Assembly (NCBI RefSeq): GCF_900100375.1
Contig: NZ_FNEZ01000001.1
Location: forward strand, 310,001-374,000
Direction of reading: 5' to 3'
Length of the DNA: 64,000 nt
Source: Flavobacterium noncentrifugens
GTDB taxonomy: Bacteria > Bacteroidota > Bacteroidia > Flavobacteriales > Flavobacteriaceae
The number at the start of each line of letters is the position of its first letter. The stretch's first letter is position 1. This document shows, one piece after another, positions 55,829-58,878 of the stretch. Below the pieces are notes generated by a model, which saw only the letters and a list, made by a program, of their open reading frames with translations, was not told the origin of the DNA and made no database searches. The position numbers and the translations under genes are program-made.

Positions 55829-55859
55829 AAAAGCCGGCAAATGACATTGCCGGCTTTTT
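55829..55859 (-). terminator. Terminator after the small secreted protein pair
   Basis: Perfect 12-bp inverted repeat AAAAGCCGGCAA/TTGCCGGCTTTT with a 6-nt loop and a U-rich end in the minus direction (T run on the plus side too). Confidence 0.88.
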
Positions 55860-55929: not shown

Positions 55930-56142
55930 TTATTTTTTAGTTTTTGCAGCTTCCGCTTTTACTTCAGCTTTAGCCATTTTTGCGTCTGCCTTAGCTTCAG
56001 TTTTTGCAGCTTTAGCGTCGGCTTTCATTTCAGTTTTATGCTTTTTAGCATGTTTTTCAACTTTAGCTGCTGGCGCATCCTGAGCAAACGCCATAGTTGT
56101 TGTTAATCCTAAAACCGCTGCGATCATCATTAAATTTTTCAT
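55930..56142 (-). CDS. Small secreted Lys/Ala-rich protein 1
   Basis: Not a recognised family. A 70-residue protein: signal peptide MKNLMMIAAVLGLTTTMAFA, then a mature part of about 49 residues made almost only of Ala, Lys, Glu, Asp, Met and Thr in AKxxAKAEAKAD-type repeats, predicted to be a cationic helix. It is a tandem paralogue of the next gene upstream, 26 bp away, and ends at a terminator. Its composition recalls the E. coli acid-shock protein Asr. Regulation by the neighbouring two-component system is inferred from the shared promoter box. Confidence 0.8.
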   Translation of the reverse strand: MKNLMMIAAVLGLTTTMAFAQDAPAAKVEKHAKKHKTEMKADAKAAKTEAKADAKMAKAEVKAEAAKTKK

Positions 56143-56168: not shown

Positions 56169-56384
56169 TTATTTTGTTTTTGTTTTTGTTTCCACTTTAG
56201 TGGTTGTTTTTTTAGCGGTTTCTGTTTTTGCAGGCGCTGCTTTGGTTTCGGTTTTCGTTTCCGTTTTTACCACTTCCGTTTTGTGTTTTTTGTTGCTTTT
56301 TACAGTTTTTGCAGGCGCTTCCTGAGCGTAAGTCATAGTTGTAGCCAATCCTAAAACCGCAACTAACATCATTAATTTTTTCAT
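56169..56384 (-). CDS. Small secreted Lys/Thr-rich protein 2
   Basis: A 71-residue paralogue of the neighbouring small protein: nearly the same signal peptide (MKKLMMLVAVLGLATTMTYA), then a Lys/Thr/Glu-rich mature part with KTETKTE and KVETKTKTK runs. It is the first gene of the pair, with an exact TAnnTTTG element 32 bp before the start and three ATGAAG-type direct repeats upstream of that. No database family is recognised. It probably acts in the periplasm or outside the cell under stress; this is inference. Confidence 0.8.
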   Translation of the reverse strand: MKKLMMLVAVLGLATTMTYAQEAPAKTVKSNKKHKTEVVKTETKTETKAAPAKTETAKKTTTKVETKTKTK

Positions 56385-56415: not shown

Positions 56416-56461
56416 CAAAGGTATTCCTGTAAAATGAAGATTAAATGAAGATTTTGTGAAG
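56416..56461 (-). promoter_or_regulatory. Regulated promoter of the small-protein pair
   Basis: Read on the minus strand: CTTCAC-N5-CTTCAT-N5-CTTCAT (56434-56461, 11-bp period), a 10-bp gap, then TACCTTTG (56416-56423). On the plus strand the boxes read ATGAAG, ATGAAG, GTGAAG. Six-base direct repeats spaced by five are typical of OmpR-family (PmrA/QseB-like) binding sites, and the position just upstream of the -7 element suits an activator. Confidence 0.75.
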
Positions 56462-56477
56462 CACTGAATTTTAACTT

Positions 56478-57806
56478 TTATTTAAGTTCAGATGGAAACA
56501 GCAATTTAAAAGTGGTTCCGGTTTCTGCTTTTGATGTTACCAAGATAATAATGTTGTGAAAGTTTGCTATCGTATGTACGATCGCCAATCCCAATCCTTG
56601 TCCGTCCTGATCCGTACTGATCCTGCTAAACCTTTCGAAGATGTGCAGCAGTTGATTTTCATTCATCCCGATTCCCGAATCTGAAATTTCAATGAAATAA
56701 TTCCGATCTTCAATCCCGTCTAAAATCGCAATGCTTCCGCCGATGTGGTTGTATTTTATCGCATTCACAATTAGATTGTACAATAAGATGTGAATGAGTG
56801 TTTGATTGGCCGTAAACTCAAAATCGGTACTTGCCTTATTAAATAAAGTAATATTTTTTTCTTCAAACCGGTCTTCTAAATCGATTATCAAATCCCGGAT
56901 CACATCGGCAACAGCCACTTTTTCATTTGCTGCATACTGATTGTTCTCGATTTTTGAGATCAGCAGCAAATTGTTGATGATTTTCTTCAGCATGTCAAGC
57001 GTGCGAAGGGAAGCTGCAATTTTATCAACGGCGTTGTCATCCAAAGATTCGTTCTGAAGCAGGTTTTCCAACCGGTTTTTAAGCAGCGAAATCGGCGTCA
57101 TTAATTCATGCGACACGTTTGCGATAAATTGCTTTTCGTTTTTGAATACTTCGCCAATGCGTTTCATCATCTGATTTAAAACGGTATCGAGCTCTTCAAA
57201 ATCTGCGGTATGCGAAGCCACCGGCGTATAATCGAAGGAATCCGGATCGTTTGCATTGCGGATTTTCGTATTGATGATCTTATAAAACGGCTTCAGCAAA
57301 TATTCAATGTAAAACGTATCGACAATGAAGGTCAGGATAATCACAACGCCAAAAAGAATGATGATGAAAGCTTTGATAATAAACGTCAGGTCCTTGATTT
57401 CATTGAGGCTGCTGCCAATTTCAAGCAGGTATTTCGAATCTTCATACACAAATGCATATTGCAAAATCCGGTATTCATTGGTTTCATCCTCTATGATCCG
57501 CGGCTCATTCACAAAAGCCGTTTTCTTCATCACCTGATTTTCGGGAAGCCGCGACAACTGCAAAAAAGAATTGTGCAGCATCGAATAACTCGCATACGTA
57601 TCGCTCGAATCGTTCCCTACAATATAATCGTTGATTTCTTCCTTATCAAGATGCTGGATGAACTTTTGCTTCTTTTCGAGCAGGCTTTTATTGATGTGTT
57701 TGTAGACGACATTCTGGATCAGCATCGGAAGCACAAACCACAAGACGACGATGATCAGCAATCTGGTCAGTGCGTTGAATATGGAAAGCTGGTGCTTGAT
57801 TTTCAT
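56478..57806 (-). CDS. Sensor histidine kinase
   Basis: A 442-residue membrane kinase with two membrane helices (about residues 12-32 and 140-165) flanking a periplasmic sensor of about 110 residues, a HAMP-like linker, the H box ANVSHELMTPI with His233, then N, G1 (DSGIGM) and G2 (GQGLGLAIV) ATP-binding boxes. The start at 57806 follows the regulator stop by one base; a longer frame from 57848 would overlap that gene. Together with the OmpR-type regulator it forms a two-component system. Confidence 0.93.
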   Translation of the reverse strand: MKIKHQLSIFNALTRLLIIVVLWFVLPMLIQNVVYKHINKSLLEKKQKFIQHLDKEEINDYIVGNDSSDTYASYSMLHNSFLQLSRLPENQVMKKTAFVNEPRIIEDETNEYRILQYAFVYEDSKYLLEIGSSLNEIKDLTFIIKAFIIILFGVVIILTFIVDTFYIEYLLKPFYKIINTKIRNANDPDSFDYTPVASHTADFEELDTVLNQMMKRIGEVFKNEKQFIANVSHELMTPISLLKNRLENLLQNESLDDNAVDKIAASLRTLDMLKKIINNLLLISKIENNQYAANEKVAVADVIRDLIIDLEDRFEEKNITLFNKASTDFEFTANQTLIHILLYNLIVNAIKYNHIGGSIAILDGIEDRNYFIEISDSGIGMNENQLLHIFERFSRISTDQDGQGLGLAIVHTIANFHNIIILVTSKAETGTTFKLLFPSELK

Positions 57807-57807
57807 C

Positions 57808-58482
57808 TTACAGGTTGATTCTGTAGCCAACGTTTCTAACGGTTTCAAACCATTCTAAAGTCGCAAATTTATCTAGTTTTTTGCGAAGGTTTCTCACGTG
57901 TACATCGATAAAATTCGAATCGGAATTGATTTCGAGTATGTCACCCCAAATGTGTTCGGTCAATTGCAAACGTGTAATCACACGGTTTTTGTTCAGAGCC
58001 AGATACCTAAAAATATCAAATTCTTTCTTCGTCAGCGCAATCGGATTTTCATTAAAGCTCACTTTATAATCCTGCAATTGCAGCTTAAATCCGTGAATAT
58101 CGAGTACATTCGCAGCAAATCCGTGCATCCTGCGGATGATCGCCTGCAAACGTGCGCCAAGTTCCGTCAGCGCAAAAGGTTTGGTCAGATAATCATCGGC
58201 GCCAAGCTGCAAACCGTTAATGCGGTCGTCGAGTTCGCCACGCGCCGTAATAATTACCACCGCAATATCCGATTGTTTTTTCCGGATGCCTTTCAAAACG
58301 TCAAATCCGCTGCCATCAGGCAAACCCAGGTCGAGCAGCATCGCATCAAAACTGTTTACCGAAAGCTCCTCAAGCGCAGTTTCGCAATCCTTTGCCCATT
58401 TGCACAAATAGCCGTTCTTAGAAAGGTAATCGACGATTTCTTGGGCCAATTCCGGATGGTCTTCAACAATCAGAATATTCAT
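57808..58482 (-). CDS. OmpR-family response regulator
   Basis: A 224-residue regulator of QseB/PmrA shape. The receiver domain has acidic residues near the start (VEDHP), the phosphorylation site Asp51 in LLDLGLPDG, Thr79 and Lys101 (TKPF). The winged-helix domain (about 128-224) contains the recognition region IDVHVRNLRKKLDK. It is upstream of the kinase gene and coupled to it. The direct repeats at 56.4 and 58.7 kb are its likely targets. Confidence 0.94.
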   Translation of the reverse strand: MNILIVEDHPELAQEIVDYLSKNGYLCKWAKDCETALEELSVNSFDAMLLDLGLPDGSGFDVLKGIRKKQSDIAVVIITARGELDDRINGLQLGADDYLTKPFALTELGARLQAIIRRMHGFAANVLDIHGFKLQLQDYKVSFNENPIALTKKEFDIFRYLALNKNRVITRLQLTEHIWGDILEINSDSNFIDVHVRNLRKKLDKFATLEWFETVRNVGYRINL

Positions 58483-58549
58483 AAAGGTTCGATAAGTGTG
58501 ACAAAGAAAATAAATTTTTCTGAACGCGCTTCGTAAATGTTAGTTAAAC

Positions 58550-58575
58550 AAAAAAACCGGCGGTTAGGCCGGCTT
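58550..58575 (-). terminator. Terminator upstream of the response regulator gene
   Basis: An 8-bp stem (58554-58561 and 58568-58575, one G-U pair) with a 6-nt loop and seven U in the minus direction. It lies in front of the regulator gene, not after any known gene, so it ends a separate short transcript. Confidence 0.8.
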
Positions 58576-58674
58576 TCCAGTAATTAACGCTTTTGTTTTG
58601 GCTGCTTCCAAGATAATTGGTCATTCATTCAATGCAGTCAAAGCAACAGCATTTATTATTTTGTCAGGTTATTT
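58550..58674 (-). ncRNA. Predicted short transcript upstream of the response regulator
   Basis: Inferred from a complete promoter (TACATTTG at 58681-58688 with two ATGAAG direct repeats 10 bp upstream) and a terminator at 58550-58575, giving about 125 nt on the minus strand. It contains a 14-codon frame at 58584-58628 (MNDQLSWKQPKQKR) ending just before the terminator stem. It may be a small RNA, a leader peptide with attenuation of the regulator gene, or a small protein. No homologue is known to me. Confidence 0.5.
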
Positions 58675-58680
58675 CTAAGC

Positions 58681-58715
58681 CAAATGTAGGATTGTAAAAT
58701 GAAGTTCAAATGAAG
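58681..58715 (-). promoter_or_regulatory. Second regulated promoter, facing the response regulator gene
   Basis: TACATTTG -7 element (58681-58688) and, 10 bp upstream, two boxes that read CTTCAT-N5-CTTCAT on the minus strand (58699-58715). Motif, 11-bp period and 10-bp distance are the same as at the small-protein promoter 2.2 kb away. Confidence 0.7.
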
Positions 58716-58741: not shown

Positions 58742-58822
58742 GGGCGTTGCCTTCGGCCAGGCTGTCCGCTGTATCTTGGCTCCATTGCATTTCGCCAAGG
58801 ATGCCGCTTCCATCCTTAACGC
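58742..58822 (+). repeat. Dispersed structured repeat, copy B
   Basis: Same order of segments as copy A near 28.4 kb: GGGCGTTGCC, GGCTGTCCGCTGTATC, then GGATGCCGCTTCCATCC and TTAACGC. The central stem is 6 bp here (58775-58780 and 58794-58799) with a 13-nt loop. The polA promoter lies downstream of it. Confidence 0.85.
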
Positions 58823-58878
58823 GGATGAAACTTCAAATCAAAATCAATCCAAAATGCAATTTTCGACTACAATTTTTG

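Follow-up and report, generated by a model that had tools for sequence, protein, structure and literature searches.

A tandem CTTCAT box at a fixed distance from the -7 element, predicted to serve a compact OmpR-type regulon of small cationic proteins in Flavobacterium

The window, that is, the whole 64,000-nucleotide stretch of the Flavobacterium noncentrifugens genome that was analyzed, contains a genuine promoter box of two CTTCAT half-sites, which very probably is the landing site of the neighboring sensor-controlled regulator that would activate genes for small cationic secreted proteins. The system appears to be a compact OmpR-type regulon, confined, within the samples searched, to one genus. 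Judging from sequence comparison, we consider it highly likely that the regulon is narrow and PmrA/PhoB-like: once phosphorylated, the regulator would occupy the DNA from about -39 to -23 and switch on genes whose products are cationic envelope proteins.

The box and the genes around it

On the minus strand, positions 56461 to 56416 read CTTCAC-N5-CTTCAT-N5-CTTCAT-N10-TACCTTTG, and the first small gene begins with its ATG 31 nt further on. Seen on the plus strand, the repeats are ATGAAG (56434-56439), ATGAAG (56445-56450) and GTGAAG (56456-56461), with a period of 11. The minus-strand -7 element, TACCTTTG (56423-56416), is separated from the nearest repeat by exactly 10 bp and points toward the small gene at 56384-56169 (-). 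A first-pass annotation of the same DNA had described repeats with an 11-bp period, 10 bp from a perfect -7 element facing a pair of small-protein genes; the coordinates, the spacing and the orientation all proved correct. For Bacteroidetes sigma-A, the -7 consensus given in PMC6847099 is TAnnTTTG, refined to TAHHTTTG, and the T of the -7 element is placed at -12. By the rule in that source, transcription is predicted to start at ∼56411, and, with the same numbering, half-site 1 (CTTCAT, 56445-56450, minus strand) would occupy -39 to -34 and half-site 2 (CTTCAT, 56434-56439, minus strand) -28 to -23, around the -33 region, whose element is described as weak in Bacteroidetes promoters (PMC6847099). 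A GTTAA element with a conserved position lies upstream of the box (56471-56475, minus strand).

Within the window, RTGAAG-N5-RTGAAG has three matches, compared with a mean of 0.04 and a maximum of 2 in 100 dinucleotide shuffles. The third match is part of another complete copy, which lies at 58715-58681 (-) on the upstream side of the OmpR-type regulator and in which the box and TACATTTG are likewise separated by 10 bp; the box is indeed present in front of the small proteins, as had been claimed, and this second perfect copy had been overlooked. TAHHTTTG by itself is not evidence, with 57 occurrences in the window versus 45 expected. The full pattern, CTTCAT-N5-CTTCAT-N10-TAnnTTTG, has exactly two perfect matches in the 4.03-Mb genome, both at this locus, and the reversed pattern combined with TAnnTTTG has none. 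One further site in the genome has a single mismatch to the box; looser matches are background, since with up to three mismatches the box is found 12 times and the reversed pattern 10 times.

The proposed binder of the box is an OmpR/PhoB-family response regulator of 224 aa (57808-58482, minus strand). Its receiver domain (PF00072, 96.8 bits) and its winged-helix domain (Trans_reg_C, PF00486, 78.3 bits) both score above gathering, which bears out the earlier claim that an OmpR-type regulator is encoded next door. The adjacent sensor histidine kinase of 442 aa (56478-57806, minus strand) has two membrane helices flanking a periplasmic part of ∼106 aa, the limits of which were set by eye. Within these by-eye limits, the periplasmic part is acidic, with a net charge of -3 to -10 in 25 kinases (alignments covered 25 of 36). 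Its predicted fold resembles WalK/Cache sensors weakly (best VIA-align Z of 7.4, for 5is1, a level that the tool calls common), and a Foldseek search returned no match at an E value of 0.001.

Downstream of the box, two small Lys-rich proteins are encoded, one of 71 aa (56169-56384, minus strand) with a signal-peptide-like start and one of 70 aa (55930-56142, minus strand), the second without its own box and probably in the same operon. A terminator-like hairpin follows the small genes (55829-55858, minus strand); the stretch has two such sites, versus 3.5 expected. Neither of the two proteins matched a Pfam or NCBIfam family above the cutoff. A third Lys-rich relative in this genome, of 95 aa, lies away from the locus (L304 on contig C10, 944-1231, minus strand), with no box upstream.

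Conservation of the box and co-occurrence with the regulator

An orthologue of the regulator was found in 35 of 121 genomes of the genus (72 to 100% identity, E values of at most 6.6e-108; no further genus genome passes the limit of 1e-60). The comparison covered 36 loci, those of the 35 genomes and F. tagetis GN10 (L017), with locus L129 being cut by a contig end. Absence of the box in front of orthologous small-protein genes, named in the first-pass annotation as evidence against its reading, was checked for, and the box was found in all 36 loci, 2.0 to 2.2 kb past the start of the regulator gene and before a gene whose small, Lys-rich product has a signal-peptide-like N terminus. The linker from half-site to -7 element is 10 bp in all 66 matches of a scan that tolerated 8 to 12. 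Across the 36 downstream promoters, both CTTCAT half-sites (the same in 36/36) and the six core positions of the -7 element are 100% identical, in promoters picked by a pattern that itself fixed TTCA, TTCA, TA and TT.G; this selection lost none of the downstream loci and 5 of 36 upstream. CTTCA is unvarying in 61 aligned sites. Elsewhere in the downstream promoters, identity is 75% in the spacer, 57% in the linker and 36% in the far flank, and the stretches adjoining the box reach 47% upstream and 63% downstream; for comparison, the regulator gene shows 53% identity at third codon positions.

These values bear on the idea that the repeats reflect chance or shared ancestry without function, persisting because the loci are recent copies. 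All the loci are orthologous and come from one genus, and some of the bases compared were dictated by the search pattern; yet the pattern stands in 36/36 downstream loci against such divergence of the far flank and of the third codon positions, and the same block fronts unrelated genes, those for small proteins and PepSY-like ones. We regard the probability of this idea as negligible.

Conservation of this kind holds for two repeats of the three. The slot of the third, CTTCAC (56456-56461, minus strand), has 36% identity, the level of the flank, and at least five of the six bases of CTTCAT occur there in 1/36 downstream promoters, that of the window alone, and in 0/31 upstream promoters. Of the three-repeat box originally described, the two CTTCAT repeats are thus retained, and the third was rejected as a component because its slot is unconserved outside this genome. 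The GTTAA element, 25 bp upstream of half-site 1, recurs in 31/36 downstream and 16/31 upstream promoters. The -7 element reads TAHH in 33/36 downstream and 30/31 upstream promoters, as is typical of Bacteroidetes sigma-A, and TTTG occurs within or beside the spacer in 15/36 and 18/31, respectively (33/67), being missing from the first promoter of the window. A profile (R1) comprising the 61 distinct sites among 67 recovers these by construction; among the matches listed, sites at the locus score at least 26 bits, except for the upstream variant of L142 (19.2), a site at an MprF-type gene scores 29.0, other sites score at most 22.5, and the best site in a regulator-less genome scores 21.6 bits.

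A search of the genome and related genomes for the box near TAnnTTTG, which the first-pass annotation had proposed, showed that the exact box tracks the regulator: it is present in 35 of the 121 genomes, the same 35 that have the regulator, and in none of the 86 others. The reversed-pattern control had no match in any of the 121. The small proteins follow the same distribution. With a filter of 50 aa, 14% Lys and 10% Ala, which missed the downstream ORF of L142, 76 ORFs of 59 to 81 aa were collected, in which a signal-peptide-like segment gives way to Lys-rich repeats that also contain Ala, Glu, Pro or Thr and the net charge past residue 20 is +5 to +12; 28 of the 76 are included in the alignment (A2). 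At an E value of 1e-5, the family occurs in the same 35 genomes, with three extra matches within ORFs of 702 to 707 aa. In a family sample of 397 genomes (E value of 1e-70), the regulator was found in two genomes only, both of the same genus. On a PolA tree built by a quick method from 93 of the 121 genomes, with 58 of the 86 regulator-less ones represented, the presence of the regulator is patchy, needing 13 changes, at least 6 of them forced by starred branches. The polA gene itself lies inside the region around the regulator in 33/35 regulator genomes, which is also the arrangement in the window; the exceptions are G111 and G120.

Co-occurrence does not by itself imply binding, because the box, the regulator and the small genes are physically linked. 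Linked elements are gained or lost jointly, and the box could belong to an unlinked regulator or a specialized sigma factor, the two-component system being nearby through linkage. Such an explanation would accommodate the conserved upstream GTTAA, which suggests that further factors may act on these promoters, as well as the weak box retained at a PepSY-like gene in one regulator-less genome. It is nonetheless very improbable, given that the exact box occurs nowhere in the 86 regulator-less genomes, that regulator presence changes at least six times on the tree, and that PmrA, from the same regulator family, is described as binding hexamer-N5-hexamer direct repeats (PMC10927774).

The upstream box and candidate targets elsewhere

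A second box (58681-58715, minus strand, in the window) lies upstream of the regulator in 30/36 loci; in L147 and L142, it is present with an altered -7 element, and in four loci none was found with the patterns used. In 26/30 loci, the interval from the upstream box to the regulator contains small Lys-rich ORFs, either one (15 loci) or two (11 loci). In 2/30 loci (L129 and L131), the box precedes a PepSY-like gene (PF11396, both under the gathering score), and in another 2/30, the window and L135, there is no ORF of 50 aa. A terminator-like hairpin with a T run stands before the regulator in 29/30 loci, separating the upstream box from the regulator gene, which makes autoregulation doubtful. 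The case for autoregulation as the chief purpose of this box is therefore weakened, the box mostly serving other small genes and being followed by the hairpin. Given the small Lys-rich ORFs behind the upstream box in most loci, the second box of the window, with no small gene after it, has the look of a promoter whose small-protein gene has been lost, or else of a leader of the regulator operon. Overall, the tandem-box interpretation of the first-pass annotation is supported with two amendments, namely, that the box has two repeats only and that the upstream box mostly serves other small genes.

From the second promoter of the window, a short transcript of ∼131 nt is predicted (58546-58676, minus strand), which ends with a GC hairpin and a T run, folds better than 200/200 shuffles (z, -3.29) and includes a 26-aa ORF. 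It was rejected as a conserved small RNA, with no full-length match in any of the other 120 genus genomes. Immediately upstream of the second box (58751-58830, minus strand), Rfam gives a match to Flavo-1 (RF01705) slightly below threshold (40.2 bits versus 42), in addition to three weaker matches.

Away from the locus, 14 weak profile sites were inspected, 3 of which (L222, L224 and L229) pointed to a PepSY-like gene far from it. Homologues of this gene are present in 26/35 regulator genomes (E value of 1e-4), and the window's own genome has no match at the same limit. The best upstream site scores at least 5.9 in 15/26 genomes and exceeds every one of 200 shuffles of the respective upstream sequence. 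Thirteen of these 15 sites end 34 to 43 nt before the gene; the other two end 94 nt (L262) and 145 nt (L260, a partial match) before it. Two of the 15 (L261 and L262) are at the locus and served as training sites of the profile, so that the independent count is 13/24, and these 13 genes with weak boxes are on other contigs or megabases from the locus. In 11/26 genomes with the gene, the best upstream site scores below zero. The search of regulator-less genomes covered 76 of the 86 (the 10 left out were mostly less complete or contaminated) and yielded nine PepSY-like homologues. Two of them are close orthologues, one with a degenerate box (8.0) and the other scoring -14.1; the seven distant ones all score below zero. 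On the PolA tree, the presence of the PepSY-like gene takes three changes and is a clade trait, and its co-occurrence with the regulator was accordingly discarded as evidence, being a clade effect.

The sole exact box outside the locus was found in genome G094 (L191, 1990-2024, minus strand), 32 nt before an MprF-type gene. MprF was rejected as a core target, the box being present in one of the seven genomes that have the gene. A polysaccharide deacetylase gene (PF01522) is divergent to the boxed MprF-type gene. Two weak sites, L223 (G102, 22.5 bits) and L227 (G079, 20.5 bits), lie 141 to 158 nt before an orthologous glycosyl hydrolase 18 gene. In the genome of the window, the one-mismatch box (L007 on contig C16, 1501-1535) is in promoter orientation, 27 nt ahead of the start codon (ATG) of a 98-aa ORF that corresponds to a glycogen-binding domain (CBM48/AMPK1_CBM); this site is not among the profile matches listed and was treated as chance. 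The remaining weak profile sites inspected, two of them in regulator-less genomes, are intragenic or lack a convincing promoter.

Proposed mechanism and relation to known systems

We propose that the neighboring histidine kinase senses an envelope signal and phosphorylates the regulator (57808-58482). The regulator would then form a head-to-tail dimer on the pair of CTTCAT half-sites, spanning about -39 to -23 and covering the -33 region, where conservation is poor, and would bring the Bacteroidetes sigma-A polymerase to TAnnTTTG, turning on the operon of small, strongly cationic, low-complexity proteins that are predicted to be exported. In relatives, additional proteins of the same kind would be produced, and some would also secrete a PepSY-like protein with possible feedback on the kinase. 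The likely role would be an envelope-stress or charge-buffering response, in the manner of RstA-Asr or PmrA.

The arrangement has the layout of an OmpR/PhoB tandem box, that is, two direct half-sites, an ∼11-bp period and a fixed distance from the promoter; binding itself is predicted. In PMC10927774, the PmrA box consists of directly repeated YTTAAK hexamers 5 bp apart, and PMC4660055 places half-site 1 over the -35 element for both PmrA and PhoB. The likeness to the OmpR/PmrA tandem box noted at first pass holds in this respect, with one 10-bp linker throughout. PmrA/BasR of Salmonella, Klebsiella and Acinetobacter shares with the present system the hexamer-N5-hexamer arrangement, an OmpR/PhoB-family regulator and half-site 1 at the -35 region. 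It differs in the half-site (YTTAAK versus CTTCAT here), in the promoter, which is of the Bacteroidetes type here, and in the targets, which are lipid A enzymes there and small cationic proteins here; furthermore, the regulator falls below the cutoff of the PmrA (BasR) equivalog model NF007928 (178.4 bits versus 330).

The same regulator could instead act as a repressor, with the coverage of -39 to -23 blocking polymerase until a signal relieves repression. Such a role would suit a box that extends over the core promoter on the upstream side of the -7 element, a -7 core that is perfect in 36/36 downstream promoters, so that the promoter could be strong unaided, and the TTTG within or beside the spacer in 33/67 sites, which could act as a -33 element. 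We consider repression unlikely, however: a single linker length of 10 bp in 66/66 matches is what a sigma-touching activator would need, whereas repressors tolerate varied positions, and the geometry is like that reported for PhoB and PmrA, with half-site 1 on the -35 element (PMC4660055). The invariant spacing thus favors activation through sigma contact, as proposed above.

Other known switches resemble parts of the system. The kinase has its best score against the PorY subfamily model (NF052314), at 261.3 bits, which recalls PorX/PorY of Porphyromonas and Flavobacterium; this score is, however, under the cutoff of 350, and in the present system the kinase is paired with a DNA-binding regulator of the OmpR type whose gene is adjacent. 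The Asr protein is small, exported and Lys/Ala-rich, and the RstA box differs from the box described here. RstA, an OmpR-family regulator, binds and activates the acid shock gene asr in E. coli, according to PMC11135836; an OmpR-family regulator at the gene of an acid-shock protein provides an analogy, not membership. Similarly, in DbfQRS of Vibrio cholerae, as outlined in PMC12714742, the secreted PepSY protein DbfQ binds the sensor kinase and the two-component system responds to membrane damage. The tie between a secreted PepSY protein and a two-component system is again an analogy, not membership, and the PepSY-like gene here, unlike in DbfQRS, is at the locus in 2/36 loci (G065 and G111) and otherwise elsewhere in the genome. 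No paper on the box or the regulon was found among the best-ranked open-access PMC matches. The type of switch is familiar, and this particular one seems undescribed.

More tentatively, the components may make up a self-contained charge-homeostasis circuit of flavobacteria, in which the acidic periplasmic sensor would respond to cationic attack or acidity, and the regulator would fill the periplasm or surface with disordered polycations, which would cover anionic envelope sites and might silence the sensor. In the same joint reading, which we put forward as a possibility, the circuit would be helped in some species by feedback from the PepSY-like protein and, in a single genome, by MprF.

A single observation has thus led to the prediction of a regulon whose binding site is sharply defined, whose promoter geometry is fixed and whose targets are few. 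To our knowledge, little is known of how activators act on Bacteroidetes promoters. With its invariant distance to TAnnTTTG, the box offers a clean model for promoter activation in Bacteroidetes, and, if the charge-homeostasis circuit holds true, it would provide a sharply defined activator box for a Bacteroidetes sigma-A promoter.
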